Source: Bradyrhizobium guangzhouense (GTDB lineage Bacteria; Pseudomonadota; Alphaproteobacteria; Rhizobiales; Xanthobacteraceae). Taken from it: a stretch of 64,000 bases of DNA. Below the pieces are notes generated by a model. The model saw only the letters and a program-made list of their open reading frames with translations, did not search any database and was not told the origin of the DNA. Shown piece after piece: positions 32,831 to 64,000 of the stretch (position 1 is the stretch's first letter; each line of letters opens with the position of its first letter). Position numbers and translations under genes: made by a program. Location: NCBI RefSeq assembly GCF_004114955.1, contig NZ_CP030053.1, positions 1,488,001 through 1,552,000 of the forward strand. The letters run 5' to 3'.

Positions 32831-34000
32831 TTGAGCACCGCGCCGCGCGTCGACATCGACCCCAAAGAATTCTGGGCCGATCCCTATCCGATGCTGGCAA
32901 AAATGCGGAAGGAGGCACCGATCGCCTTGGTGCCGCAGCTTGGCTCGACATTGCTGACCAGCCGCGACGACATCTCGATCTCCGAGAAGCAGATTGATGT
33001 ATTCTCCTCGCACCAGCCCGCCGGCCTGATGAACCGGCTGATGGGGCACAACATGATGCGCAAGGATGGCGAGGCGCATCAAATCGAGCGCCGCGCGATG
33101 TTTCCGACGGTGTCGCCGAAGACGGTGAAGGCGCACTGGACCGCGCTGTTCCAGGCCCATGCCGACCGCATTCTCGATCGTCTCGCCATCGGAAGCCGGA
33201 TCGATTTCATGCGCGATTTCGCGCTGCCGTTCTCCGGCGAGTGCCTGAAGTCGATCACAGGCCTCACCAATATCGGCTTTGCCGACATGGACGCCTGGTC
33301 GCAGGGCATGATCGAGGGCATCGCCAATTACGGCGGCGATCCCGCCGTGGAGGCGCGCTGCCATGCTGCGACGTCGGGCATCGATGCGGCGATCGACGAC
33401 ATCCTGCCGGTCATGCGGAAAAATCCGGATCAAAGCATTCTCGGCGTCCTGCTCGCCTCCGGCATGCCGATGGAAAGCGTGCGCGCCAACGTGAAACTCG
33501 CGATCTCGGGCGGCCAGAACGAGCCGCGCAAGGCGATTGCCGGCACGGTGTGGGCGCTGCTGACGCATCCCGCGCAGTTCGACCTCGTGCGCAAAGGCGA
33601 GGTGACGTGGCTGCAGGCGTTCGAGGAATATGCCCGCTGGATCTCGCCGATCGGCATGTCGCCGCGGCGCATCGCCAAGCCGTGGAGCATCCGCGACGTC
33701 TCGTTCGAGACGGACGACCGCGTGTTCCTGATGTTCGGCTCCGCCAATCGCGACGAGAAGCATTTCGAGCGCGCCGACGCGTTCGACGTGCGGCGTGACA
33801 CCTCGAAGAGCGTGGCCTTCGGCGCCGGTCCGCATTTCTGCGCCGGCGCCTTCGCCTCCCGCGCCATGATCGCCGACGTCGCGCTGCCGACAGTGTTCGC
33901 GCGTGCAAGCCGAATAGAGCTCGCCGACGACGAGCCGGTGCGGATCGGCGGCTGGGCGTTTCGGGGCCTGCAGAATCTGCCGGTGCGATGGGAGCGGTAG
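32831..34000 (+). CDS. Cytochrome P450
   Basis: The 389-residue protein has the haem loop FGAGPHFCAG with the axial Cys near residue 337 and the ExxR motif in EEYARW. The I-helix segment is ISGGQNEPRKAI, where the usual Thr of the AGxxT oxygen-binding motif is missing. Class I bacterial P450s use a separate ferredoxin and reductase, not seen next to it. The TTG at 32831 is supported by GGAGCC upstream and the MSTAPRVDIDP N-terminus. Confidence 0.92.
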   Translation: MSTAPRVDIDPKEFWADPYPMLAKMRKEAPIALVPQLGSTLLTSRDDISISEKQIDVFSSHQPAGLMNRLMGHNMMRKDGEAHQIERRAMFPTVSPKTVKAHWTALFQAHADRILDRLAIGSRIDFMRDFALPFSGECLKSITGLTNIGFADMDAWSQGMIEGIANYGGDPAVEARCHAATSGIDAAIDDILPVMRKNPDQSILGVLLASGMPMESVRANVKLAISGGQNEPRKAIAGTVWALLTHPAQFDLVRKGEVTWLQAFEEYARWISPIGMSPRRIAKPWSIRDVSFETDDRVFLMFGSANRDEKHFERADAFDVRRDTSKSVAFGAGPHFCAGAFASRAMIADVALPTVFARASRIELADDEPVRIGGWAFRGLQNLPVRWER

Positions 34001-48488: not shown

Positions 48489-48565
48489 GGCGGGGTAGCT
48501 CAGCTGGTTAGAGCACGGGAATCATAATCCTGGGGTCGGGGGTTCGAGTCCCTCCCCCGCTACCA
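48489..48565 (+). tRNA. tRNA-Met (anticodon CAT)
   Basis: The 77-base gene folds into a complete cloverleaf. The acceptor stem is GGCGGGG paired with CCCCGCT, the D-arm GCTC-AGCTGGTTA-GAGC, and the anticodon stem CGGGA/TCCTG with loop ATCATAA (anticodon CAT). The T-arm is GGGGG-TTCGAGT-CCCTC, and an encoded CCA end is present. The paired first base argues for an elongator tRNA rather than an initiator; tRNA-Ile2 cannot be excluded by eye. Confidence 0.93.
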
Positions 48566-50471: not shown

Positions 50472-53400
50472 TCAATTGAGGCTGTGCGCGGCCTCCTCTG
50501 GTGTTTGCTCGAGCTTCGCGAGCAGGCGATCGATTTGATCGTCCCCGCGTTTCTCCATCATGGATTCGACGGTCGCCTGCGCCAGCGCTTCGACCGTGGG
50601 ATTATCGAACATGAGGCGGACGGGCAGTTCGGCCCCAAACTCATCTCTGATCCGGGAAATGACGCGAGTGGCCAACAACGAATGCCCTCCCAGCTCAAAG
50701 AAGTTGTCCTTGATGCCAACGCTCGGCACCTGAAGGATGTCACTCCACAGGCGCACCAGCGCAATTTCCACCGGCGTCCTCGGCACTTCGCCGGCGGTGG
50801 AATGGGACGCTTCCTCTTGCGGGTCGGGCAGGTTGTTGCGGCTCAGCTTCCCACTCGGCGTAAGCGGCAGCGATCCCACAATGACATATGTCGCCGGAAT
50901 CATTTGCTCGGGCAAAATGGCGCGAAGATGCGCCCGGAGGTCTTCCGTCGACACAGGCGATTCCGGATCGGCCTGGATGTAGCCGAACAGACGAAGCTCG
51001 CCGCGGCTTTCGCGGGCAACCACAACGGCTTCGCGGACCGACGGGTGCGTCCGTAGGGCAACTTCGATCTCGCCGAGTTCGACCCGGAAGCCACGAATCT
51101 TGACCTGCTGGTCCGACCGTCCGAGGAACTGAAGCTCTCCGTTCGACAGAAAGCGCGCGCGGTCGCCTGTTCTATACAGTCGTCCTCCTTTCGTGCTTTG
51201 CCCATCCGGGACGAAGCGCTCGGCCGTCAGGGCGGGCCGTTCCAGATAGCCATGCGCCAGAGCAGAACCGCCAATGCAAAGCTCGCCCGGAATACCGATC
51301 GGGCAAAGCTGTCCATGCGAGTCGAGGATCTGGATCACCGTATTGGGGAGCACCCGGCCGATCGACGGGCGCGCCGGCCAGTCGCTTGCCGCGCCGGTCA
51401 GCGCGAGTTCGGTCACGACGTGAGACTCGGTCGGTCCGTATTGATTGTACAGATTCGCGCTCAACCGAGTGATCATCGCAGCTATCTGTGGCGTGATCTG
51501 TAGTTGTTCGCCGGCCGTGACAATCTCTGTCAACGAATGGGGAAGGACCGCCGCATGTCGAGCGTGCTCTGCCAGTTGCTGGAGCGCGACATAAGGAAGG
51601 AAGAGTCGACGCACGTTTTCCTGATGCAGCAATTTCCATAGAGCGGGCGGATCCCTGCGCTGCTCCTCTGTTATGAGGACGAGCGTTCCGCCGGCGCCCA
51701 ACGTCGAGAATATTTCCTGGAACGAGACGTCGAAACTCAAGGAAGCGAATTGCAAAGTTGGCGCCGCTGTCGGCAGCGCGGACCGGGCGATTTGCCAACG
51801 GATCAGTGATGCGAGCGGACCATGCGGCATCGCTACGCCTTTCGGTCTGCCCGTCGACCCGGATGTATAAATGACATAAGCGAGGCTGCCGGCCGTAGCG
51901 GATACGGCCGGATTGTCGTCAGCGAGAACAGCGGGTTCAAGGTCATCGATGGCGAGCAGCACGCCGGTCGCTTCCGACAATTCGCTGCGCCGCGCACTTT
52001 GCGTCAGCATCAATGCGACACGCGCATCTGCAGCCATGTAGGCAATGCGCTCTTTGGGGTAGGAAGGATCGATCGGAACATAGGCCGCTCCAGCCTTCAG
52101 CGTTGCGATAAGGGCGACGATCATATCCACCCCACGCTCGATGCAGATCGCCACGCGAGAGCCCGGTCCGATGCCAAGCCCGATCAGACGGTGCGCCAGA
52201 GCATTGGCGCGGCAGTTGAGTTCCTTGTAGGTGGTTTTTTCCTCTCCTGCGACAAGCGCGACTTCGTCCGGCAAGAGCGCCGCCTGCTTCTCAAACAGCA
52301 CGTGGCTAATTTCCGGTTGGATCGGATCTTCGGTGTCGTTCCAGTCCGCGAGGGCTGCCGTCTCGGCCGGCAGAAGCATCGGCAGCGACCATATCGGACG
52401 ATCCGGCTCGTTCATCGCCGCGGTGACCAAAGCGCCATAGTGTCCCGCAAAGCGCGCGACCGTAGACCGATCGAACAGATCTGAATTGTATTCGATTCCG
52501 GCGCGAAGGTCGCTCGACGATTCCGACAAGAACATCGTCAGATCGAATTTGGATATGCCGGCGCTCAGCGACAGGGTATCTTCATCGAGCAGGCCGTCGG
52601 CTGCCATGGGTCGGCCCATGTTCTGCAAGGCAATCATGACCTGGAAGAGCGGATTGTAAGAGAGATTTCTGCTCGGCTGGATCTCCTCGACCAGCCTCTC
52701 GAAAGGAATGCCCTGGTGTGCGAAGGCGCCCATCGTCACATCGCGCACCTCCGAAACCAGGGCACGGAAAGTGGAGTTTGCCGAAAATTGGGTGCGGAGT
52801 ACGAGCGTGTTCACAATAAAACCGATCAACCCTTCGAGTTCGGGGCGCACCCGGTTGGCAATCGGAGAACCCACCACCAGGTCTTCACGACCAGTATAGC
52901 GATAGAGAAGGACATAAAACGCTGACAGCAAAGTCGTAAAAAGGGTTACTTGCTCCTGCTCGGAGAAAGTCTTGACGCTCTTGAGGAGCGATGGCGGCAG
53001 GGTGAACGTGTACAAGCCTCCGGTGAAGGTTTGCATCGCCGGCCGCGGTCTGTCCGACGGCAATTCGAGCAGTGGGGGTGCACCCTGGAGTTTGTCTTTC
53101 CAGTAGCTGACGTCGCGCTGCAGCACCGGGCCGGACAAGTATCGACGCTGCCAGGAAGCGAAGTCCGCATACTGGATCGGGAGATCGGGCAACGATGGAG
53201 GCCTCCGGCTACGCCGGGCCTCGTAGAGTGCGACAAGCTCTCGGGATATGATGTCCATCGACCAACCATCCGCGGCAATGTGGTGGATGGTTAGAAGGAA
53301 TAGATTGTCATTGTTGTGCAGACGTATGAGTTCTGCCCGCAAGACCGGTCCGTGCTTCAGGTCGAACGGCATCCGTGTCTGCCGCGTGGTCAGGCGTTGC

Positions 53401-56400
53401 ATCTCGAGTTTCTTGGTTTGCTCGGGCATGTTGCGAAGGTCGTGAACGGGCATCTTGATTTGGAGAGACGGTGCGATCACCTGCACTGGCTCGTCCGCGA
53501 CCGTGTCAAAGGTCGTGCGCAGCGTTTCGTGGCGCACGATGAGGTCGTTGAGGGCGCCTTCGAGCGCTGCCACGTCGAGCGCTGCGAAGCGCACCGGCAT
53601 GGCGATGTTGTAGACGGCGCTGTGCGGATCGAACTGGTCCAGGAACCAGAGGCGCTGCTGCGCAAATGACAACGGGATCGGCCGATCCCTGGCAATTCGG
53701 GGGATCGTGGAGACCTGTGGCTGAGGATCTGAACCGACCAGCGGCTTGATGATTGCCGCCAGTTGCTCGATCGTCGGCGCTTCGAACAGGCGCTGGAGTG
53801 GCACGTCGATCTGCAAGTTATCGCTTATCCGCGCGATGATTTGTGTGGCGATCAGAGAATGGCCGCCAAGCCGAAAGAAATTGTCCCGGATTCCGACCAC
53901 GTCGGTGTGGAGGACGTCCATCCAGATCTGTGTCAAGTAAATTTCGAGATTGTCGCGCGGCGCGAGATATTCTTCGATGCCGGAAATTGGGGCGTCCAGG
54001 CGCGCGACGATTTCTGCCAACGCACGCCGGTCGATGTCGCCTTTGCGGTCATAAGGGATCTCTCGCCTAAGTTCGAACGTCGAGGGCATCAGCCGCGCCG
54101 GTATCCGTTCAGCCAGGAAGCTCTGCAGCTCCGATACCGGAACGTCCCGAGACAGCTTTAGAAATGCAACTACCCCCCGGTCATGCAAGCCCTGGCGGGT
54201 TCGTGCCGCAACGGCCGCTGCCTCCACTGCCGGATGTTCGCGAAGAGCAGCCTCGATCTCGACGAAGTAGGTCTTCAAATGGCCCGTTAGCAGAGCATCT
54301 TCCATATCGCCATGCAGGACGAACTGCCCGTTCTCGAGCCGAGCAAAATCATCGGTCCGATAGCCTGGCTCGGGGTGGGACAAATCGGGATTTTGTACAT
54401 AGATATGTCCAGGCACGCGTCCCGGCACGGGCTCGAGGTCGCGTCCCAGAAGGTTGATTCGGACGCCGGCAGCCGGAATTCCAAGCGGAATGACCGCTGC
54501 ATCTGGCTTGAGAAGCGCGAGCGGTTGAATCAAATAAAAGCCACCCGCGGCCGGGTCACCCGACACCATATGAATCCGCCCGATGAGCTCGGGCGTGAGC
54601 GCTTCCTGAAGCTGGCCCCAATCCAATCCGCGTTCGGTAGAAAGCACGAGCCGGACACTTCGCAAGGACCGCGGAAATTCCCGGACCAACCGCTCCAGAT
54701 CCGCCAGAGCGAGGGACAGGACGGTAACCGAGGAGTCATGCAGCAGCGTTGCAAAGCGCCGCGAGCGAAACGACAATTCGGGCGGCACAAATACGATTGC
54801 CGCTCCGGCGGCCAGCGCACCGAAGATTTCGTACCGCCCGCAATCGGAGCCGATCTTGGAAAGATGGGCGACGCGATCCTCCGGCGACAGGCGAAGGAAA
54901 CGGTCACATCCAGCGCGGCTGAGCATCCGATGGCTGAGGTGCACAGTGGTCATTTTGGCTGTGCCGTCAACCTGGGCAAGCATCATTGCGGGCGAGTCGA
55001 GCGTTACGGAGTTTGCGAGTTCATCGTCCGGGCGGGTCGCCGAATCTGCCCAAACCTCGTCAAAGCGGACGACCTCTCCCCCGAATTGTCGGAAGCACGG
55101 CTCGGTAGCTTCGTCTACGATCACCAATGCCGGCCGAAGCGCCGTCAAGATGCGCTCCGCCCGATCGGAGTTCAGCGGGAGCCCGCCTGGTGCCAAGATG
55201 TCGGCCGGATCGATCGGAGCCCAGACCAAACCCGCCTTCAGGATCGCCAAGATGAGCGCGAGCCCTCCCGATCCGGACCTGGAAGCGACCGCGACGGTGC
55301 TGCCGGCGCTCAGCTTCCCGAGGAAAGACGTGCGCGCGATCCGGTTCGCCCGCTGGTTCAGCTCGAAATAGGTGCACGTACCATTGGGATCGATGGTGGC
55401 AAGGGCTGTCGGTGAGCGTGCCGCATGGGCGGCGATGCGGGCTCCCAGGACTTCCGTCGGCACCGCCGCTGTTTCCGGGGCATCGGCCGAATCCGCGGTT
55501 TTGATGACCTCGTCGGGCATCCATATGGAGAGGCGCGACAGCGTTTCGCGAGGATTCTCAACAATTCTGTGCAGCAACGCTATGTAGCGCTCGATCATGA
55601 CCTCGGCGGTCGATTCATCGAAAAGGTCGGTGTTAAATTCGAGAGCTCCTTGTGCACCGGCTCCGGTATCGAGCACCGACATCGTCAAGTCGAACTTGGC
55701 AGTACCGTTGCCGACCGCGCCAGCCTGGATCTGGGATCCCAACGGCTGGATGGGAGCTGCGCTGCGGTCGACCGCTCCGATGTTTTGGACCCCGAACAGG
55801 ATCTGGAAAAATGGATTGCGGCTCAAATCTCGGTCGAGCTGAAGTTCGTCGACCAACTTCTCGAACGGCATGTCCTGATTGCTATAGGCTTCCAGCGCCA
55901 CGTCACGCTCGCGCACAAGCAACTCGACAAAGGTCGGATCGCCCGAGAGATCCGTCCGCAAGACCAGCGTGTTGACAAAGAAGCCGATCAACCCTTCAAG
56001 CTCCGAACGGGTCCGGTTGGCGATAGGCGATCCGACGGCGATGTCGGTTTCCCCACTCAAACGGTGGAGCAACACCTTGAACGCGGCGAGCAGCGTCATG
56101 AACAGCGAGGCGCGGCTGGCGTTGCCGAGCGTCTTGAGCGCTTCGCACAGCTTCTGGTCCAGCGTAAAGACGCGGACCGACCCGTTACTGGTCTGCACGG
56201 ACGGTCTGCGACGATCGGTGGGGAGATTGAGCACGGACCGCAGGCCGGAGAGCTGCTTGCGCCAGTAACCGAGCTGCTTTTGCAGAAGCTCGCCGCGGAA
56301 CCACTCTGCCTGCCATACCGCGAAGTCCGGGTATTGAACCGTCAGTTCCGGCAACGGCGAGGGGCTCCTGCGCAAGAATGCCACATATATTGTCGTCAAT

Positions 56401-56924
56401 TCCCGATTGAGCACCGACATCGACCAACCATCGGAGACGATGTGATGCATCACCAGCATCAGAAAGCTCTGGTTGGAATTGAGGTGCACCAGCGAAGCAT
56501 ATAGCAATGGTCCTGTTCTAAGATCGAACGGCCGTCGGCTTTCCGCATAGATGAAGCGGCTCAGAGCCTCCTCCCGGGCCGCCCCGGAACGCGAACGCAG
56601 ATCGACGATGGCGAGCTTGAGCTTCAAGGAAGGCTTGACGACCTGTGCGGGTTGGCCGTCGACCACCTCGAATGTCGTCCTCAAGGCTTCGTGCCGCCGT
56701 ACGATTTCATTTATGGTTCGTTCGAGAACCGCCACGTCGACGCGGCCATACAGCGGGACCGATGTCGCAATATTGTACGCGGGATTACCCGGTTGAAATC
56801 GGTCGAGAATCCACAACCGGGATTGCGCAAAGGACAGAGGACGAGCACGCCGCTCGCCATTCTTGACGAACTGGGACGCGGAGCCGTTCGGTTGATTTGG
56901 TGCCTGAGAGATCGTGGACAACAC
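50472..56924 (-). CDS. Two-module non-ribosomal peptide synthetase, C-A*-T-C-A-T
   Basis: The 2150-residue protein reads, in order: condensation domain (about 28-460, HHIVSDG at 160-166); a degenerate adenylation domain (about 480-990); carrier domain (Ser near 1020 in FFRLGGHSLIA); second condensation domain (about 1085-1520, HHIAADG); complete adenylation domain (about 1540-2035: YTSGSTGRPKG, YNQYGPTES, YRTGDRARF, SGKLSRNNL); and a second carrier (FFELGGHSLLA). There is no thioesterase at the end. In the first A domain the P-loop, YGPTE and the catalytic A10 lysine are gone (GDIDRR for GKxDR). By eye the second A domain reads DVQVVAQVV, near proline-type codes; tentative. A start at GTG 56924 or TTG 56921 is possible. 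Confidence 0.93.
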   Translation of the reverse strand: MLSTISQAPNQPNGSASQFVKNGERRARPLSFAQSRLWILDRFQPGNPAYNIATSVPLYGRVDVAVLERTINEIVRRHEALRTTFEVVDGQPAQVVKPSLKLKLAIVDLRSRSGAAREEALSRFIYAESRRPFDLRTGPLLYASLVHLNSNQSFLMLVMHHIVSDGWSMSVLNRELTTIYVAFLRRSPSPLPELTVQYPDFAVWQAEWFRGELLQKQLGYWRKQLSGLRSVLNLPTDRRRPSVQTSNGSVRVFTLDQKLCEALKTLGNASRASLFMTLLAAFKVLLHRLSGETDIAVGSPIANRTRSELEGLIGFFVNTLVLRTDLSGDPTFVELLVRERDVALEAYSNQDMPFEKLVDELQLDRDLSRNPFFQILFGVQNIGAVDRSAAPIQPLGSQIQAGAVGNGTAKFDLTMSVLDTGAGAQGALEFNTDLFDESTAEVMIERYIALLHRIVENPRETLSRLSIWMPDEVIKTADSADAPETAAVPTEVLGARIAAHAARSPTALATIDPNGTCTYFELNQRANRIARTSFLGKLSAGSTVAVASRSGSGGLALILAILKAGLVWAPIDPADILAPGGLPLNSDRAERILTALRPALVIVDEATEPCFRQFGGEVVRFDEVWADSATRPDDELANSVTLDSPAMMLAQVDGTAKMTTVHLSHRMLSRAGCDRFLRLSPEDRVAHLSKIGSDCGRYEIFGALAAGAAIVFVPPELSFRSRRFATLLHDSSVTVLSLALADLERLVREFPRSLRSVRLVLSTERGLDWGQLQEALTPELIGRIHMVSGDPAAGGFYLIQPLALLKPDAAVIPLGIPAAGVRINLLGRDLEPVPGRVPGHIYVQNPDLSHPEPGYRTDDFARLENGQFVLHGDMEDALLTGHLKTYFVEIEAALREHPAVEAAAVAARTRQGLHDRGVVAFLKLSRDVPVSELQSFLAERIPARLMPSTFELRREIPYDRKGDIDRRALAEIVARLDAPISGIEEYLAPRDNLEIYLTQIWMDVLHTDVVGIRDNFFRLGGHSLIATQIIARISDNLQIDVPLQRLFEAPTIEQLAAIIKPLVGSDPQPQVSTIPRIARDRPIPLSFAQQRLWFLDQFDPHSAVYNIAMPVRFAALDVAALEGALNDLIVRHETLRTTFDTVADEPVQVIAPSLQIKMPVHDLRNMPEQTKKLEMQRLTTRQTRMPFDLKHGPVLRAELIRLHNNDNLFLLTIHHIAADGWSMDIISRELVALYEARRSRRPPSLPDLPIQYADFASWQRRYLSGPVLQRDVSYWKDKLQGAPPLLELPSDRPRPAMQTFTGGLYTFTLPPSLLKSVKTFSEQEQVTLFTTLLSAFYVLLYRYTGREDLVVGSPIANRVRPELEGLIGFIVNTLVLRTQFSANSTFRALVSEVRDVTMGAFAHQGIPFERLVEEIQPSRNLSYNPLFQVMIALQNMGRPMAADGLLDEDTLSLSAGISKFDLTMFLSESSSDLRAGIEYNSDLFDRSTVARFAGHYGALVTAAMNEPDRPIWSLPMLLPAETAALADWNDTEDPIQPEISHVLFEKQAALLPDEVALVAGEEKTTYKELNCRANALAHRLIGLGIGPGSRVAICIERGVDMIVALIATLKAGAAYVPIDPSYPKERIAYMAADARVALMLTQSARRSELSEATGVLLAIDDLEPAVLADDNPAVSATAGSLAYVIYTSGSTGRPKGVAMPHGPLASLIRWQIARSALPTAAPTLQFASLSFDVSFQEIFSTLGAGGTLVLITEEQRRDPPALWKLLHQENVRRLFLPYVALQQLAEHARHAAVLPHSLTEIVTAGEQLQITPQIAAMITRLSANLYNQYGPTESHVVTELALTGAASDWPARPSIGRVLPNTVIQILDSHGQLCPIGIPGELCIGGSALAHGYLERPALTAERFVPDGQSTKGGRLYRTGDRARFLSNGELQFLGRSDQQVKIRGFRVELGEIEVALRTHPSVREAVVVARESRGELRLFGYIQADPESPVSTEDLRAHLRAILPEQMIPATYVIVGSLPLTPSGKLSRNNLPDPQEEASHSTAGEVPRTPVEIALVRLWSDILQVPSVGIKDNFFELGGHSLLATRVISRIRDEFGAELPVRLMFDNPTVEALAQATVESMMEKRGDDQIDRLLAKLEQTPEEAAHSLN

Positions 56925-57030
56925 TGCACCTCCACTTTTGCGGGAAATCCCGACGACTGAACCTAGCCCGTGCCGCTGTCATCGAGGCCATCGCCGTCCG
57001 GCGAGGCACCCGATCTTTTGTCTTCCCGGC

Positions 57031-58974
57031 TCATTTACCGGCCTGGAGCAACCCGGCCGTGTCAGCCGACTTGCTCACATAGGCGGGATCCAGCGAAGGC
57101 ATGTGTCCATCGCTACGCTCGGGCATGCCATCACCGGAGACAAACCATTCAATCATGCGTGCCACGACATCAGCTCGATCATAGAGAAAGTAATGCGTCG
57201 CTCCCGGAGCCTGCAGCAGACGCGCACGTGGAAATAACCCGCTCGCCCATTCCGAAGCTTTGGGCGCCGCGACACGGTCGTACTCCGATGCGAAAAACAG
57301 GATCGGGACGTCGATTTGGCCCGCGACTTCGTTAACATCGTAGTGCCAGAAATCGATCATCTGACGCGCAAATCTGATCGTTGTGCTCGCGTCGCGAAAC
57401 GGCCGTAGCACCGGCATTCTCAGGTCACGGTTCATCGCGCCGAGAACAGCCTCCGACTCGTCTGTTTCCGTCATCAGGTCCAAGCCGGCCTCAGTCGCAC
57501 CCGAGGTTAGTGAAGCCGCTATGTACGAGGCCGTCGACGGTCTTTGTTCCAGCTCGCTGAAAATGGCCTCAAACTCGGTTTCAAACGGCGTATCAAAATT
57601 GGGCGAGCTCTCGAGACACTTCACCTGCATATTCAGGAACGTCATGGAGAGCACCCGCCCCGGGTGGCGCAGAGCGAATTCCGCCGCGATCTTAGGGCCG
57701 GTGCACCATCCGACCAGATGGACGCGAGTCACCGACTCCCGCTCGAGGATTGACGCTAGTTCGGCAACATGATCGAGAAGCGAGAGCTGGGATTCCGACT
57801 CCTCGAGCCCGCGCGGATCCCAACTCAGAACCCGAAACCGCGGGCGTAGATGGGCTATCAGCCGAGACCATGGTTTCGGTCCCTGGCCTAGGGCGTTGAG
57901 CAGCACAATCGCCTCTCCGTCGCTGCTCGTAGAACTATGGGAAAGCTCTCGCTCGCCGCTATGCGTCGTTCGGGTCTCCGGAGGCTTCGAGGCGTGAGAA
58001 ACGAGCGCACTATGTTCGGACAATTGCGTCTGATGTGCCGATTTCGCCAAATCATCGAACTCGGCGGGACCCAGACCAGGTTGAGCAGACCTCATGCCTG
58101 CGGCGTTGTAGGCATGTTCGATCACCTCGCGGTTCGGTTGCCCCAGGTGTTCGGCGAAATTCATCAACCGTCGATCAAACAGCGCGTCGATGGCGGTTAG
58201 CCGCGGAGAGAACAGTTCCTTGGCGTCCAATGCCAGCAGGCTTACGCCGTAAATGTTGCCGACCCGCTCGAGAAAATCCTCCCCCGACAGGCTCTCCGCC
58301 CCCGCGACAACGTAGTTGCCGCCCTCTGTCCGATCAGCAATCGCCATGATGATTGCTGCTGCTTGCTCGGTTCTCAGAACATTGACCCGGGCGGTCGGCG
58401 CAATCAGGCACCGGAGCCCTCGGTATTCGAATAGATCATCAGCCCGTTCATCGATTTCCGTCTTGAGATCAAACAAGGTGGACAGGAAATGAAGGACGCC
58501 TTCTTGCGCGATATCGTCGGGAGGAGCGATATCAAGCGTCAGCGTCGTTCGGAACGACCGCGTCACGGGGAAATCCATCGGGACCGGATTGCGATCGACG
58601 ACCGACGCGCCTCGCGGCATAATCCAGCGCCAACGCTGGCCGCCGCAATAAGGTGTCGTAACCACATTCAGCGCGCCGATAGGGGTAGCCCGAACGGTTT
58701 CGAGCAGCGATCCGGCAATGGACTCTCCACTCGAGGCGAAGTGCCATACGTCCGCGCCGGCAGCGTTCTCCAATGAGGAGAGGGGCTCCATCTGTCCCGC
58801 TCCAGCCCTTGGCTCTCGGCGGAGCGAAATTCGCCGCACCAAGGACTCGAAGCGCGCGTACGCCACCGGTGGCGCCAAGACGCTTACTTGCTGGGAACGC
58901 GACAACCGCTCGGCGGCGATGAAGGCCGCCAACAGGCCAGGCGTCCCAGTGAAGACAGCACTCTCTTGCGACAT
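57031..58974 (-). CDS. Fusion of a thioester-reductase/SDR-like domain and an alpha/beta hydrolase with a Cys nucleophile
   Basis: The 647-residue protein has an N-terminal extended-SDR-like part (about 1-310, FTGTPGLLAAF in place of the usual GxxGxxG, later NYVVAGAESLSG), a polar linker, and an alpha/beta hydrolase (about 350-620). The nucleophile elbow is GWCTG with Cys424 instead of Ser. The acid is likely in FFASEYDRV and the histidine in GATHYFLYD. It lies 106 bases upstream of the NRPS, which lacks its own release domain, so it may release, reduce or cyclise the product. The SDR motif is degenerate. Confidence 0.7.
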   Translation of the reverse strand: MSQESAVFTGTPGLLAAFIAAERLSRSQQVSVLAPPVAYARFESLVRRISLRREPRAGAGQMEPLSSLENAAGADVWHFASSGESIAGSLLETVRATPIGALNVVTTPYCGGQRWRWIMPRGASVVDRNPVPMDFPVTRSFRTTLTLDIAPPDDIAQEGVLHFLSTLFDLKTEIDERADDLFEYRGLRCLIAPTARVNVLRTEQAAAIIMAIADRTEGGNYVVAGAESLSGEDFLERVGNIYGVSLLALDAKELFSPRLTAIDALFDRRLMNFAEHLGQPNREVIEHAYNAAGMRSAQPGLGPAEFDDLAKSAHQTQLSEHSALVSHASKPPETRTTHSGERELSHSSTSSDGEAIVLLNALGQGPKPWSRLIAHLRPRFRVLSWDPRGLEESESQLSLLDHVAELASILERESVTRVHLVGWCTGPKIAAEFALRHPGRVLSMTFLNMQVKCLESSPNFDTPFETEFEAIFSELEQRPSTASYIAASLTSGATEAGLDLMTETDESEAVLGAMNRDLRMPVLRPFRDASTTIRFARQMIDFWHYDVNEVAGQIDVPILFFASEYDRVAAPKASEWASGLFPRARLLQAPGATHYFLYDRADVVARMIEWFVSGDGMPERSDGHMPSLDPAYVSKSADTAGLLQAGK

Positions 58975-59012
58975 GCCGAGGTACCCGTAACGTCATCCGC
59001 CCTGGCGGAGCA

Positions 59013-59486
59013 TCAAGCGGCAGCTCCAGGTGCCCCGCCCGGGGGTGAGAAGGGATCGCTGGCAGCGGGTGCGCTAGGAGAAACCGGCCCCACCAAGTTC
59101 ATCGCCGTCGTTGAAACGGACAGCAGGCTTTGGCCCAAGTTTCTCACATCCGTAAAACCGAGGTCATTGATGTCGCTCTCGGCTATCAGCTGTTTCAATG
59201 CGGCCTTGTACTTGTCATACGCCTCGGCATATTGCTGCGGCAGCGTCGGATTGCTGTAGAGCGATTGTACCTTCTGTTGATATTCATCTTGCGCGACGCG
59301 GAACTGCTCTGGCTGTTGGCTCTGATAGGCCCTCTCGATCCCGCGTTCGAATTCGGTCTGGATGTTGCGGCACTGGCTTTGCGAGTCCGCCCAGGCATCA
59401 GCCACATCCCGGAAATATCTCTCGTGGATCAACTGCAGCTGCCTGTACACCGGCTCGTTTGATTTGTCTTGGTTTGTCATCGTCAT
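59013..59486 (-). CDS. Helical protein of unknown function in the NRPS cluster
   Basis: I do not recognise a family. The 157-residue protein is predicted helical for residues about 10-115 (QLIHERYFRDVADAWADSQ, IERAYQSQQPEQFRVAQDEY) and ends in a Pro/Ala/Gly-rich tail. No Cys besides one, no signal peptide. GGGAGG lies before the ATG at 59486. It is the first gene before the SDR-hydrolase and NRPS, probably in the same operon. Confidence 0.6.
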   Translation of the reverse strand: MTMTNQDKSNEPVYRQLQLIHERYFRDVADAWADSQSQCRNIQTEFERGIERAYQSQQPEQFRVAQDEYQQKVQSLYSNPTLPQQYAEAYDKYKAALKQLIAESDINDLGFTDVRNLGQSLLSVSTTAMNLVGPVSPSAPAASDPFSPPGGAPGAAA

Positions 59487-60354
59487 AGGAGCCTCCCTAC
59501 GTTCGGTTGGATTGGGTCATTTACGATAGCGCCACGCGCGGTCTCCTGGTTGCGCCTAAAATACCGGTGCACCATGTTCGTGCTTAGCGTCGATCCAAAA
59601 AAAGATCTCGAGTGCCTGGCATCGTTTGCCATCCCTTGGTCTTCCGATGCACGCCATGATCCGTTCGACCGATAAGATCGCGATGGTGGCGTGCCGGTGG
59701 TGGCAAGCTTGTTCGGAATGTTTCTGTTCTTGCTGACGCTTTCCGCTGAAAGCGGACATCAACTGTCGGCAGGTCGAAGTCGTGATCGTCGAAAATGTCG
59801 AGATCATTAGAGGATGTGACGCTGGCAAATTCGTCATGCCGCCCGGGCAATGGATCGCCAGACGGATGAGCGGTCAGCTCGGCGACTGCCGACGCCTCGC
59901 CAGGGTTGGTGGACGATCGAACCAAAGCGCGCTTGCCTTTCTGCTCTGGGCATCGACCCGACGGACGGCCAGAACACTAAAAACAATATGCTTCCGGACA
60001 GGCTCTCTCCCTGATCTCCCACGCACTTCGGATTGTTACCAGCTTGATCAAAGATGCGCGGTCTTACGGGTGGTCAGCGATCTCCGAGCGAGTTCAAATA
60101 TTGTTCCACGGCTAACAATCTCGCTGCTCACCCAGAGATTGTATTACCACATTCTATACGCTTCCGTGAATGAAATTTGCGCCAGCTAATCAAAAGATCG
60201 GAAGGCAGGCGTCGTCTTGGTTCGCCTTCGCCCATGAGACCGGCGCGCGACCGCGCTCTCTTGCGATTGCTTCAGGACTACAAAAATAAGGACCCGATCA
60301 ATGGGTTATTGATTGGTCACAGACTACGCCATATGGCCTGCGCGAAGACTTCTC
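59487..60354. other. Long intergenic region inside the cluster
   Basis: I found no convincing gene in 868 bases on either strand. Its composition is less GC-rich than most of the window, especially 59960-60190. Promoters for the minus-strand NRPS unit should lie near 59490-59600. It could hold a decayed gene. Confidence 0.45.
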
Positions 60355-60588
60355 TCACTGCTCCTTGGCAGCAGAGGCTTCGTGATCCGTTCGCTGCGTC
60401 ATCTGCTGCCTGAGGCTCAGCGGGCGCATGTCAGTCCAGACTTGCTCGACATAGGCAAGGCACTCCTCCTTCGAGCCGACCTTGCCCGCGTCGCGCCAAC
60501 CGAGCGGCAGATTGTCGCGGTCGGCCGGCCAAATCGAATACTGCTCTTCATGATTGATCACGACTTTCATTTGTCCGTCATCAGGCAT
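60355..60588 (-). CDS. Second MbtH-like protein
   Basis: The 77-residue protein has [18 protein letters not shown] and [18 protein letters not shown], clearly MbtH and a close paralogue of the gene at 50168. The ATG at 60588 is preceded by GAGAG. It sits between the NRPS unit and the divergent N-hydroxylase gene. Two MbtH copies in one cluster suggest either duplication or a second A domain outside this window. Confidence 0.9.
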
Positions 60589-60999
60589 GTCAGCTCTCTC
60601 GTAAAACGTTCGGCGCAAAATCACGATTCCGATCACCGGATACTTTCACAACAACTGAAAGTAGGATATTGTTAGAAGAAGAAACTAGGAATAGTATCAA
60701 AGTCCACTCCTCCTCTTTATGAGGCTCGTGGAAATCTTAGACGCCGGTTTCTGAATTTGAGCGGTGTTGCGGGCACGTCGATAATTGCCCCGTTGAGGCT
60801 TGCGTACATAGCGAAATACATCGAGGGAGGGACAGATTGGAATCTCCCATTGATACTGCGAGGGCGTCGATAGCCATTGATATCGACGGCAACCACGAAG
60901 TGTTCGGATCACCGGCCGAGGCTACATCCGACCGGTGCGCGCTATTCGTCAAACCACAAGTTCATAACGGGATTTGGCCCTTATCACCGAGAGAGCGCC
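60589..60999. other. Divergent promoter region between MbtH and the N-hydroxylase
   Basis: No gene is supported. The region is AT-richer than its surroundings (60600-60760) and separates the minus-strand MbtH from the plus-strand hydrazine-type genes, so it should carry both promoters. No clear regulator site was found by eye. Confidence 0.45.
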
Positions 61000-62301
61000 A
61001 TGATCTATCAGTGTGTCGGCGTCGGCATCGGACCGTCGAACCTAAGTCTTGCCTCGCTTCTCTATCCGTATAAGGGCGTGCTCAGCGCCTTCTTCGACCG
61101 AAAGCCGGAATTCGCGTGGCATGACGGGATGTATTTCCCTGGCGCGAAGCTGCAGGTCGCGTTGTTCAAAGATTTGGTTACGCTGTCGGACCCGACAAAT
61201 CCCTTCTCGTTTATTTCTTACCTGCATGCCGAGGGTAAGATTCATCATTTTCTCAATGCTCGATTCGAGGCGGTGCCGCGGCGTGAGTTCCGGAACTATC
61301 TGAAATGGGCGAGCGATTCGAACGAGAACGTTCATTTCGGTGAAGAGGTCACGCAGATCCGGTTCGACGGGCACTTTGTCGTAGAAACAGACAAGCGCTG
61401 TATCCGTGCCGAGAACATTGCCGTCGGCGTCGGCACAGAGGCCCATATTCCGAGCTTCGCCCGAAACCATATCGGCCCAACACAATTCCATGTCAGCGAA
61501 TATGGCGCCAAGGCCAAGTCGCTCAAGGCGAAGCGCGTCGCCATCGTCGGCGGCGGTCAGTCCGGCGCCGAAGCGTTTCTCGACGCAATCTCCTGCGACC
61601 ACGACCTGCTGCCGAAGCAGGTCACCTGGATATCGCGCCGCGAGAATTTCCTGCCATTGGACGATTCTCCTTTCGTCAACGACTATTTCATGCCGAGCTT
61701 TTCCGATTACTTTTTCGGTCAGGATGCCGAGTTCAAGAGGGCGTTCCTCGAACGGAACGTTCTGGCGAGCGATGGCATCTCGGAAAAGACACTCCGGGAA
61801 ATCTATCAGCGACTCTACGAGCTCCGCTTTATCGAGGATTGCGGCAATGTGTCCGTGCTGATGCCTGGCCGAACGGTCGAGCAGGTCTGGCACGATGGTC
61901 GGCAATGGGGCCTGGCCGTGACCCATGATGCGACCAAATCGGAAGAGGAGCCTGTCTACGCCGACATCGTCATATGGGCGACCGGCTTCCGCAGTGCCCG
62001 CATGCCGTTTCTCGATCCGCTCGTGTCGCGCCTTGAATACGAAGACGTCGAGGTTCGCATCGACACCAATTTTGCGGCGGTCTGGGACGGTCCGGCCAAT
62101 CGGCGCATCTTCATGCTGAACGCCGCGCGGCGGCAACGCGGGTTGGCTGAACCCAATCTCAGCCTGATCGCCTGGCGCAGCCAATGCGTGATTGAGGCGA
62201 TGCTGAGCGGGGTAAGCTGCACGCGCGCAGCCCAGAAGCAGTCCTTCATGACCTGGCAGCCGATCAATGCTTGGTCCGAGCGCCAGCACCGCGCGGTGTG
62301 A
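61000..62301 (+). CDS. L-lysine/L-ornithine N-monooxygenase (IucD/LucD type)
   Basis: The 433-residue flavoenzyme has the FAD motif GVGIGPSNLSLA at residues about 7-18, the family segment WHDGMYFPGAKLQVALFKDLVTL (read over residues about 40-62), the NADPH motif VGGGQSGAEAFLDA, and ATGFR near the C-terminus. It N-hydroxylates the side-chain amine of lysine or ornithine. In siderophore systems the product is a hydroxamate precursor; beside a cupin-MetRS gene it more likely feeds N-N bond formation. The ATG at 61000 fits the FAD motif at the N-terminus. Confidence 0.92.
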   Translation: MIYQCVGVGIGPSNLSLASLLYPYKGVLSAFFDRKPEFAWHDGMYFPGAKLQVALFKDLVTLSDPTNPFSFISYLHAEGKIHHFLNARFEAVPRREFRNYLKWASDSNENVHFGEEVTQIRFDGHFVVETDKRCIRAENIAVGVGTEAHIPSFARNHIGPTQFHVSEYGAKAKSLKAKRVAIVGGGQSGAEAFLDAISCDHDLLPKQVTWISRRENFLPLDDSPFVNDYFMPSFSDYFFGQDAEFKRAFLERNVLASDGISEKTLREIYQRLYELRFIEDCGNVSVLMPGRTVEQVWHDGRQWGLAVTHDATKSEEEPVYADIVIWATGFRSARMPFLDPLVSRLEYEDVEVRIDTNFAAVWDGPANRRIFMLNAARRQRGLAEPNLSLIAWRSQCVIEAMLSGVSCTRAAQKQSFMTWQPINAWSERQHRAV

Positions 62302-62311
62302 GGGGGCGGCC

Positions 62312-63352
62312 ATGCGCGAACGGGTGGTCGTTGCGGGCGCGGGGATTATCGGCTCCGTCATCGTTCGACAGATCTTGGCCGAGCGACCCGGCACGGAAAT
62401 CATCGCGATCGACCGGGACTTGGTCGGCTCAGGCGCGTCACGGCGTTCTGCTGGGCTACATTTTCCGGTTGGCCGGACCGAGCGCGTACGCGCCATGACC
62501 GAGATGAGCGAGCGCTACTATCAAGCGCTCGCAGCCCGCGATCCCAGCCTGCCGATCTATCCAGTAGCAATGCATGCGGTGGCCTTCGGCACGGCTGCCG
62601 AGGCAGCATGGCGCAATTTCATCAAAGCGGGGCCGATCGAAACATCGCCGCCAGCCTGTCGACGGGTGGCGATGGGGCAACCGGTCGGCGCTTCGGTCTG
62701 GTCGGTCCCAGGTTGCCACTACACCGATGTCGCGACCCTGGCAGGTCGTCTTGTTCGAGAATTTCGGTCCGCGATCTCGCTCCTTGAAGGCGTCGCCGTC
62801 GCAAATATCCGAGAGGAGGCAGGCGCCGCCGTACTGGTGCTCTCGACCGGCGAGACGTTGAGGGCGGACCGATTGATCCTGGCGCCGGGCCCGTGGGTGA
62901 ATGCGCCGGCATGGCGTGCGCTGGTCGCGCCGCTCGGCATCCGGATCAAGAAAATCATCGCCCTCCATCTGGATGCTCCGGTGGAGAAGGCTGATGCTGC
63001 GGTCGTGTTCCCGGAGGAGGACGCTTTCCTGCTGCCGCTGCAGCATCGTGGCCATTGGCTTTTCAGTTATACGTGCCTCGATTGGGATGTCGATCCGGAC
63101 GCGCCGCAGCCTGGTGTAAGTCGACAGAATCTCGATGAGGCGCAAGCGGTGCTTCGACGTTACGCACCGGAGCTGGTCGAGAAATTGCGGTCCGGCCGTG
63201 TGTTCTGCGACGCGTATAGCCCGAGTCGGGAACCGATTGTCGCCAGGGTCGGCGCAAGCGGCCGGATCATTTTCGCCGGCGCTGCAAACGGATCCGGCTA
63301 TCGTCTGGCACCGGCCATCGCTGCCGAGACGTTGCGGCTGCTCGACGACTGA
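62312..63352 (+). CDS. DAO-family FAD-dependent amine/amino-acid oxidase
   Basis: The 346-residue protein has the Rossmann motif VVVAGAGIIGSVIVRQIL, then SGASRRSAGLHFP and the C-terminal FAD region IFAGAANGSGYRLAPA, typical of glycine oxidase/D-amino-acid oxidase relatives. In hydrazine pathways a DAO-like enzyme oxidises the N-N-linked lysine adduct and frees a hydrazino acid. AGGGGG lies before the ATG at 62312, ten bases after the N-hydroxylase stop, so the genes are co-transcribed. Confidence 0.88.
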   Translation: MRERVVVAGAGIIGSVIVRQILAERPGTEIIAIDRDLVGSGASRRSAGLHFPVGRTERVRAMTEMSERYYQALAARDPSLPIYPVAMHAVAFGTAAEAAWRNFIKAGPIETSPPACRRVAMGQPVGASVWSVPGCHYTDVATLAGRLVREFRSAISLLEGVAVANIREEAGAAVLVLSTGETLRADRLILAPGPWVNAPAWRALVAPLGIRIKKIIALHLDAPVEKADAAVVFPEEDAFLLPLQHRGHWLFSYTCLDWDVDPDAPQPGVSRQNLDEAQAVLRRYAPELVEKLRSGRVFCDAYSPSREPIVARVGASGRIIFAGAANGSGYRLAPAIAAETLRLLDD

Positions 63353-63377
63353 TCACTCGGCCCGAGGAACGCACGCT

Positions 63378-64000
63378 ATGAAGATTACAACCTTGGACGA
63401 AAGCGCCTACTCCGCCGCGTTCGGCATCGAGATGGCCCCGGTTGGTAGCCTTGCCGGCCCAGGCGGAGCCGCAAGTTTCGGGCGCGTCTTGCCGGGAGGT
63501 GAGACAACACCGCACCAGCATGACGAAGCCGAGGCATTCGTCATACTCAAGGGCGCGGGCGAGCTGGTCGTCGACAACGTCATCCACGGCGTCGGCCCGG
63601 GCTCGGTCGCCGTATTCGAGCCCTTTGAAACACACACGTTGCGGAATTCGGGCGGCGTGCCGCTGGAGTTCTTGGACCTCTATGGCCGCGATCCAGCCCG
63701 CGCGGCCGAAGCGGCCAAGAAGACCGGCAAGGAGCGCTTTGCCGATCGGCCTGTCTTCGTCTTTTCGACGCCGCCCACGCCAAATGGCGACCTTCATCTG
63801 GGGCATCTCTCCGGCCCCTATCTCGGCGCCGACGTCTTCGTCCGCTTCCAACGCATGAACGGGGTCGCAGCCTATCACCTCACCGGCAGCGACGATTTCC
63901 AAAGCTACGTGGTCGCCCGCGCCAACCAGGAAAACACCGACCCTCCACGCGTCGCCGCGCATTATGCCTCGGAAATTCGCGCGACGCTTTCTCTCATCGA
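63378..64000 (+). CDS. Cupin-methionyl-tRNA-synthetase-like fusion, N-N bond-forming type (5' part)
   Basis: The frame is open from the ATG at 63378 to the window edge (207 residues seen). Residues about 25-110 are a cupin: TTPHQHDEAEAFVILKG and the later EPFETHTLRN carry the metal-binding histidines. From about 130 comes a class I aminoacyl-tRNA synthetase catalytic start of the MetRS type: STPPTPNGDLHLGHLSGPY with HLGH as the HIGH motif, then VFVRFQRMNG and LTGSDDFQSY. This didomain order is that of Spb40/Tri28-type enzymes, which couple N6-hydroxylysine to an amino acid through an N-N bond. It starts 25 bases after the DAO gene. Confidence 0.85.
   Translation, partial: MKITTLDESAYSAAFGIEMAPVGSLAGPGGAASFGRVLPGGETTPHQHDEAEAFVILKGAGELVVDNVIHGVGPGSVAVFEPFETHTLRNSGGVPLEFLDLYGRDPARAAEAAKKTGKERFADRPVFVFSTPPTPNGDLHLGHLSGPYLGADVFVRFQRMNGVAAYHLTGSDDFQSYVVARANQENTDPPRVAAHYASEIRATLSLI

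Follow-up and report, generated by a model that had tools for sequence, protein, structure and literature searches.

Which product does a hydrazine-forming gene set make when it stands beside a non-ribosomal peptide synthetase (NRPS) in a rhizobium? The question is raised by the right-hand end of a 64,000-nucleotide window of Bradyrhizobium guangzhouense (the whole stretch of DNA analysed, G000:C1:1488001-1552000, within an 8.1-Mb genome of two contigs), where genes for a lysine N-hydroxylase, a flavin oxidase and a cupin-MetRS-like synthetase lie beside an MbtH gene and an NRPS. We found that this trio opens an azaserine-type operon, the part past the window edge covering about 14 kb, up to 78046 (numbering past 64000 continues that of the window, and a position in stretch L008 is the window position minus 60000). 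On balance, we consider that the azaserine-type set and the adjoining NRPS operon (50472 to about 78046) would together yield a diazoacetyl ester of serine that is likely lengthened to a short peptide.

Genes predicted to form hydrazinoacetate

The first-pass annotation, which covered the window, had read three consecutive genes as a lysine N-hydroxylase, a DAO-type oxidase and a cupin-MetRS-like fusion, and family searches recovered all three on the plus strand. The AzsL/Spb38-type lysine N6-hydroxylase (about 61000-62301) matched PF13434 with 314 bits and AzsL of Streptomyces fragilis at 50% identity. The AzsM/Spb39-type DAO-fold flavin oxidase (about 62312-63352), which is predicted to release hydrazinoacetate, matched PF01266 with 92 bits and its S. 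fragilis counterpart at 49%. The AzsN/Spb40-type cupin and MetRS-like synthetase (63378-65414, cut by the window at 64000) matched Cupin_2 (3.6e-13), tRNA-synt_1g (1.3e-60) and AzsN (58%). Identities to the corresponding proteins of Sinorhizobium meliloti SM11 were 82, 82 and 86%, respectively.

In the genome sequence the synthetase continues beyond the window with an intact second half. The zinc-ligand positions H46, H48, E52 and H86 (the cupin metal-ligand set as defined for PyrN; PMC8664883) are present, together with the HIGH-like motif HLGH and the KMSKS-like motif KFSTS. In an alignment of 82 rows, some genomes being counted twice, H48, E52, H86 and KFSTS were invariant (82/82), the letters of HLGH were kept in 80-82 rows and histidine stood at the H46 position in 74/82. 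The possibility that the third gene lacks its KMSKS-like half or is a true MetRS fell away with the KFSTS half and with a score of 245 bits against a cut-off of 587 bits, which, like all its scores, lies under every MetRS cut-off in NCBIfam. The hydroxylase scored 239 bits with its best NCBIfam model, histamine N-monooxygenase (cut-off 700 bits). AzsL/M/N have been linked to Spb38/39/40 and Tri26/27/28 (PMC10445470), and the host synthetase shares with the Spb40, PyrN and Tri28 family the cupin-MetRS didomain and its residues for zinc and the ATP site; no difference was noted. The earlier reading of the trio as a hydrazine core, with the third gene as its putative hydrazine synthetase, is supported by the catalytic residues, the gene order and the homology to AzsL/M/N. 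The synthetase is predicted to form the N-N bond from N6-hydroxylysine and an amino acid that we expect to be glycine.

An azaserine-type core past the window edge

Extension of the sequence past 64 kb, which had been proposed as a check, completed the third gene at 65414 and placed the trio at the head of an azaserine-type operon. We compared this operon with the azs cluster of S. fragilis (record NZ_BEVZ01000003.1), using 11 of the 21 azs genes (L, M, N, O, P, Q, S, T, D, E and F; R, A, C, H, I, J, K and U lay outside the comparison). All eleven have counterparts, contiguous and without internal stops, with identities beyond the trio of 48% for O, 54% for P, 38% for Q, 60% for S, 55% for T, 42% for D, 47% for E and 51% for F. 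Behind the synthetase lie a carrier protein (65411-65731; PF00550 with 21.9 bits, cut-off 20.8), a Cy-A-CP NRPS of the AzsO type (65728-69087, with a sub-threshold TubC-like docking match), an AMP ligase (69089-70600), a second carrier (70597-70851), a GNAT (70853-71482) and a C45 hydrolase (71479-72513). These are followed by a KAS III on the minus strand (72557-73471), an iron-containing redox enzyme (haem-oxygenase-like diiron, HDO; AzsE type; 73526-75838), an acyl-CoA dehydrogenase (about 75896-77062) and, on the minus strand, an alpha/beta hydrolase with the motif GHSLG (77141-78046). An apparent 400-aa gene at L008:12311-13513 (plus strand) is without a family, and the antisense KAS III was preferred.

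In the azs pathway hydrazinoacetate (HAA) is turned into a carrier-bound hydrazone and then into a serine ester (PMC10445470). The HAA-to-hydrazone set (S, P, Q, T and F) and the transferase D are all represented in the host, contiguously and at 38-60% identity. The host Cy domain holds all four residues matching AzsO D193, D198, N414 and N447, mutation of which abolished ester formation (PMC10445470). Across 50 aligned rows (host included, several genomes twice) these positions read D/D/N/N in 37, D/D/N/D in 11 and D/D/T/N in 2. The A pocket of the AzsO-type NRPS, DLFNLSLVW, which would select serine, is identical to the DLWNMSLIW of AzsO at 6 of 9 positions. Because gene counterparts and Cy residues agree with the AzsO system and the A pockets are similar, the host core likely follows the same chemistry, from hydrazinoacetate through the carrier-bound hydrazone to the serine ester.

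The host differs from the azs cluster and from the aza cluster of Glycomyces harbinensis in what accompanies the core. No AzsG-type P450 was found in the host genome at 1e-40 (47/47 candidates scored), and no P450 motif within the host stretches L007, L008 and L009. An AzsB thioesterase was likewise not found at 1e-12 in the host genome (20/20 candidates scored) or in a Caulobacter relative; since no such thioesterase was found, release is likely the task of a neighbouring hydrolase. The first-pass annotation had seen no characterised pathway in this setting. That held for the MbtH/NRPS neighbours, which are unusual and are kept with the core on S. meliloti plasmids, but not for the core, which matches the S. 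fragilis azaserine cluster. What is known is thus the azaserine core itself; what differs here is that no AzsG or AzsB was found, that an MbtH/NRPS/Cys-hydrolase operon is attached, and that the synthetase is rare in the genus. A P450 fragment match (33620-33853, in a 423-aa frame) lies about 17 kb from the NRPS and about 27 kb from the trio, with flagellar-looking genes (by eye) between.

The predicted diazo-forming step

AzsE, an HDO, and AzsG, a P450, have been named as the two candidate diazo formers (PMC10445470). The ferritin-like Dob3 oxidises a hydrazone in another pathway; the aza cluster is described as lacking such an enzyme, and the azaserine diazo step must use a different enzyme family (PMC13061610). 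HDO has been proposed for it, the step itself being called unresolved (PMC13274452). He and co-workers, as cited there, found the HDO NngH and the P450 NngS essential for nitroglycine and NngJ dispensable (PMC13274452). In Streptomyces noursei one P450 (L020 6376-7431) stands between the counterparts of F and L; it shares 55% identity with AzsG, and in our own comparison we take it, from gene order, to be NngJ.

We searched for HDO in 41 genomes, starting from 43 of 80 loci that were chosen mainly for an AzsO-type NRPS; the 41 do not include L011 and L045. It was present in 36 and was not found in five (one Xanthobacteraceae metagenome-assembled genome (MAG), two Chromobacterium and two Xenorhabdus). 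AzsG was present in 29 of 39 genomes searched (host included), always on the HDO contig and within 4 kb of HDO. All 29 of these genomes also hold HDO, while 8 of the 37 HDO-bearing genomes (the 36 and the host) show no AzsG, so that HDO is kept in 8 of the 10 AzsG-free genomes searched. The eight are the host, Caulobacter CCUG 60055, Micromonospora HNM0581, a Streptosporangiaceae MAG, an Actinomycetota MAG, Actinomadura rudentiformis, A. spongiicola and Actinophytocola xinjiangensis. In the two MAGs, both Actinomadura and Actinophytocola only 48 of 51-96 candidates were scored, and the regions were then read directly. Neither AzsG at 1e-4 nor a P450 motif was found in the AzsG-free regions so read, host and Caulobacter likewise, except that a frame lying about 8 kb upstream of the Micromonospora core contains a single P450 motif.

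A quick HDO tree (43 rows, 42 of them scored, 30 with and 12 without P450, 6 of the 42 states being read only within about 10 kb) gave four changes of P450 state, at least three forced by well-supported branches. Among 27 loci lacking a full AzsO match, 6 carry HDO, and two of these six have AzsG too. The P450 therefore comes and goes among HDO-bearing clusters and was not seen without HDO, which is comparative support and not proof. With 8 of 37 HDO genomes showing no AzsG while 29 of 29 AzsG genomes have HDO, the AzsE-type HDO is the likely diazo former, a role already proposed by others. A sequence search of HDO against solved structures gave nothing at E 1. A fold search with the HDO model matched the N-oxygenases HrmI, RohS and SznF, and the HDO fold and conserved carboxylate/His ligand candidates are present in the host enzyme.

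The divergent MbtH/NRPS operon and its plasmid counterparts

The MbtH gene and NRPS that the first-pass annotation placed beside the trio belong to a four-gene operon (50472-60636) on the minus strand, opposite to the core. The NRPS (50472..56924, 2150 aa) has the Pfam domain order C-A(degenerate)-T-C-A-T. It is accompanied by a protein whose N-terminal part looks Rossmann-like by eye and which has an alpha/beta-hydrolase domain with a Cys nucleophile in W-C-T (57031..58974), a candidate release enzyme; by a conserved 157-aa protein without Pfam or NCBIfam match (59013..59486); and by the MbtH-like protein (60355..60636; PF03621 2e-19). The first A domain of the NRPS has no A3, A5 or A8 motif, in host and SM11 alike, and is probably dead. 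The second is intact, and its pocket DVQFVAQVV (DVQFIAQVV in SM11) is presumably nearest to the proline-type codes. The Cys hydrolase carries Cys in place of the usual Ser nucleophile, and Cys, Asp and His are invariant in 25 aligned rows of the 36 proteins found. It has an alpha/beta-hydrolase fold, and its best 50 fold matches are hydrolases of about 260-440 residues.

The same two divergent operons were found on plasmids. The synthetase was found in 28 plasmid records, of which the 6 from Sinorhizobium match at 86%, and pSmeSM11b of S. meliloti SM11 (NC_010865.1) has the same genes in the same divergent order. Common proteins are 71-90% identical (NRPS 79%, Cys hydrolase 74%, 157-aa protein 71%, MbtH 74%, core 79-90%), with 57% for the carrier domain. 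SM11 differs from the host in an extra NRPS (1112 aa), a phosphopantetheinyl transferase, a fused synthetase-carrier and a plasmid setting predicted to be conjugative; no characterisation of the pSmeSM11b locus was found in the literature, among the matches listed. Synthetase, HDO, Cys hydrolase and GHSLG hydrolase are present on all 6 of the Sinorhizobium plasmids, which are near-copies of one another and so amount to roughly a single event. We had first viewed the NRPS operon, missing in Caulobacter and in 264 of 265 same-genus genomes, as a bystander, a view reversed by the S. meliloti plasmids. Because the MbtH/NRPS/Cys-hydrolase operon is kept beside the core on the Sinorhizobium plasmids, its conservation suggests that the product is a peptide. 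A parallel is alazopeptin, in which the diazo amino acid DON forms part of a peptide. On S. meliloti pMl3 (L169) the NRPS and the acyl-CoA dehydrogenase are annotated in pieces, KAS III is shortened and an IS6 transposase adjoins, from decay or sequencing error.

Elsewhere, six contigs are apparently common to the Cys-hydrolase list (36 proteins) and the HDO list (best 120 of 305), contig identity being inferred from equal size. They include those of the host, Bradyrhizobium USDA 4508 and Sphingopyxis kveilinensis. Four of the six (lengths 55252, 35031, 39343 and 3470982) recur in the GHSLG-hydrolase list (25 proteins), which has three further contigs in common with the best 120 of 305 HDO (25222, 12106 and 9701) and two with the Cys-hydrolase list (282864 and 83726). 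Within the 265 same-genus genomes the Cys hydrolase was found in the host only (four candidates scored per genome). No characterised pathway combining an azaserine-type core with an MbtH/NRPS operon was found in the open-access literature, among the matches listed.

Proposed pathway

From the observed gene content, order, residues and distribution we infer the following reactions, and with them the diazo group, the peptide and its role. By homology, the hydroxylase would supply N6-hydroxylysine, and the cupin-MetRS synthetase would couple it to glycine as an O-acyl ester that rearranges to the N-N bond, the flavin oxidase then releasing hydrazinoacetate. The GNAT would succinylate this product and the ligase load it on the small carrier, after which the C45 enzyme would take off the succinate and the acyl-CoA dehydrogenase oxidise the remainder to the hydrazone. 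KAS III would transfer the hydrazone to the second carrier, and the Cy-A-CP NRPS would esterify it onto serine. HDO, the sole core oxidase left without a role, may convert the hydrazone to the diazo group with no P450. The MbtH-assisted C-A(dead)-T-C-A-T NRPS may add at least one residue, and the Cys-nucleophile hydrolase, or the GHSLG hydrolase, may free the product in place of AzsB.

More tentatively, and with rather less than even confidence, we propose a rhizobial P450-free azaserine pathway, carried in part by predicted conjugative plasmids. Here the tandem HDO-fold enzyme alone would form the diazo group, and the NRPS with its dead first A domain and the Cys-type hydrolase would incorporate the diazo amino acid into a peptide. 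Such a product would be a glutamine antimetabolite in masked form, possibly used in competition between rhizobia. One plasmid-bearing Sinorhizobium strain is said, in the title of a 2007 report by Stiens, to have been dominant in a field release. These findings place a predicted pathway of the diazo-warhead type in rhizobia and on Sinorhizobium plasmids. The origin of the azaserine diazo group is open (PMC13061610, PMC13274452), and a natural P450-free azaserine-type cluster makes this question directly testable.

Alternatives to a diazo peptide

Several observations weigh against the proposed pathway, and a first group concerns the genes around the core. In the Caulobacter relative, whose core is 59-89% identical, no Cys-hydrolase homologue was found at 1e-8, and the only NRPS matches in the draft were the AzsO homologue and two weaker ones, the contig ending beside the core. 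No NRPS operon was found in the 7.6 kb that precede the core of Bradyrhizobium U87765, and no contig of the Caulobacteraceae HDO group P0045 (141 contigs) matched the Cys-hydrolase list, for the longest contigs only. The link of the NRPS operon to the core is not universal. Loading of the first carrier is not explained if the first A domain is dead, and the distance between the GHSLG hydrolase and HDO, 8-11 kb on three of the Sinorhizobium plasmids, is about 64 kb on the remaining three. Synthetase and carrier are separate genes in the host (stop and frame change, 4-base overlap), whereas the AzsN carrier is fused behind the synthetase in azs, as also in SM11 and Caulobacter; the U87765 synthetase also ends early, and the host split could be an assembly slip.

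The strongest rival is that the core makes free azaserine (O-diazoacetyl-serine) and that the MbtH/NRPS operon, a mere neighbour, makes a second, unrelated peptide. The eleven azs genes matched by the core and the Caulobacter and U87765 cores without a visible NRPS operon fit this well. The divergent operon is nevertheless kept with the core on the S. meliloti plasmids and apparently on common contigs elsewhere, and another hydrolase would be needed for release, AzsB not being found in the genome at E 1e-12. We regard free azaserine as rather unlikely.

A second group of contrary observations concerns the diazo step. The P450 is present in every one of the three published producers of azaserine (S. 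fragilis, G. harbinensis and S. noursei), and the product of P450-free clusters might not be a diazo compound. The Streptosporangiaceae MAG has its HDO at the very edge of a 7-kb contig, at the point where a P450 would come next, which leaves its P450-free state undecided. In two Xenorhabdus genomes (L044, L060), which carry hydrazone genes and an AzsO-type NRPS, whole-genome searches recovered no HDO and no AzsG. Given these, HDO is not universal either, and a hydrazone end point or another oxidase is possible in Xenorhabdus.

It could thus be argued that the host product, too, retains the hydrazone, HDO performing some other N- or C-oxidation: the azaserine diazo-forming enzyme is unproven (PMC13061610, PMC13274452), and diazo formation could be lost in P450-free clusters, the Xenorhabdus AzsO-type NRPS standing with neither oxidase. 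We consider this improbable in view of the retention of HDO in AzsG-free genomes and in loci without a full AzsO match, of its modelled N-oxygenase fold, and of the sister nitroglycine pathway, where NngH is reported to be essential and NngJ is not (PMC13274452). The nng cluster of S. noursei has the same HAA-hydrazone-serine core, and a nitramine like N-nitroglycine would arise if HDO and a hydrolase acting as NngA oxidised and freed the hydrazone unit. Both enzymes are present, the alpha/beta hydrolase being 30% identical over 117 aa to the likely S. noursei NngA. That pathway, however, has two P450s, NngJ and NngS, and requires NngS (PMC13274452); no P450 motif was found in L007-L009, NngS not being used as a query, and the nearest P450 family match is the distant fragment described above. 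We give a nitramine very little credence. A role of the trio in hydroxamate siderophore biosynthesis was rejected on gene content: a lysine N-hydroxylase and an NRPS with MbtH are common in siderophore clusters, and the solved structures similar to the hydroxylase include a desferrioxamine-pathway enzyme among others, but a cupin-MetRS synthetase and the hydrazone set follow, with the GNAT 60% identical to AzsS and the hydroxylase 50% to AzsL.

The proposed diazo peptide pathway may also be set beside the dob cluster of Nocardia ninae, compared by description, which has the same kind of hydrazone module. There a diiron enzyme oxidises the hydrazone to the diazo group (PMC13061610); dob pairs a PKS with the ferritin-like Dob3, whereas the host pairs a putative serine NRPS with an HDO-fold enzyme.

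Distribution and related loci

The synthetase was found in 3 of 265 same-genus genomes at 1e-60 (four candidates scored per genome): the host, which alone has a close one, a second genome at 47% and a third at 37% across the MetRS part. In Bradyrhizobium strains outside this set HDO has close relatives (90% in USDA 4508), and the nearest named cluster proteins are labelled Bradyrhizobium, at 85-90%. No report of azaserine in rhizobia was found in the literature, among the matches listed. The rhizobial type may be among the 129 such clusters mined from Actinobacteria and Proteobacteria (PMC13061610). A tRNA-Met gene (48489-48565), 1.9 kb past the NRPS end, is a possible landing site. Two flanking genes were sought in 31 relatives and gave 4/31 and 5/31 matches (host included) in different genomes, and no empty insertion site was found.

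More distant hydrazine synthetases, both at 47% identity, occur in the same-genus genome G134 (L137) and on a Mesorhizobium 131-3-5 plasmid (L170), the latter together with genes for a lysine N-hydroxylase and a member of the phytanoyl-CoA dioxygenase family, near nif-linked and ACC deaminase genes. Loci of the Xanthobacteraceae MAG, Chromobacterium and Ramlibacter (L012, L013, L015, L016 and L017) carry the trio, with the synthetase at 57-62% and no full AzsO-type NRPS in the stretch examined, and apparently belong to other hydrazine pathways. The AzsG-free cores of Micromonospora and two actinobacterial MAGs (L142, L143, L150, L061 and L152) have NRPS genes nearby, hinting that peptide forms may extend beyond rhizobia. 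In clusters of Actinomadura and Actinophytocola (L145, L146 and L149) the MetRS-like half is 55-58% identical, the hydroxylase 38-39% and the oxidase 27-31%, and two of the three show a separate cupin-like stretch match (29-30%).

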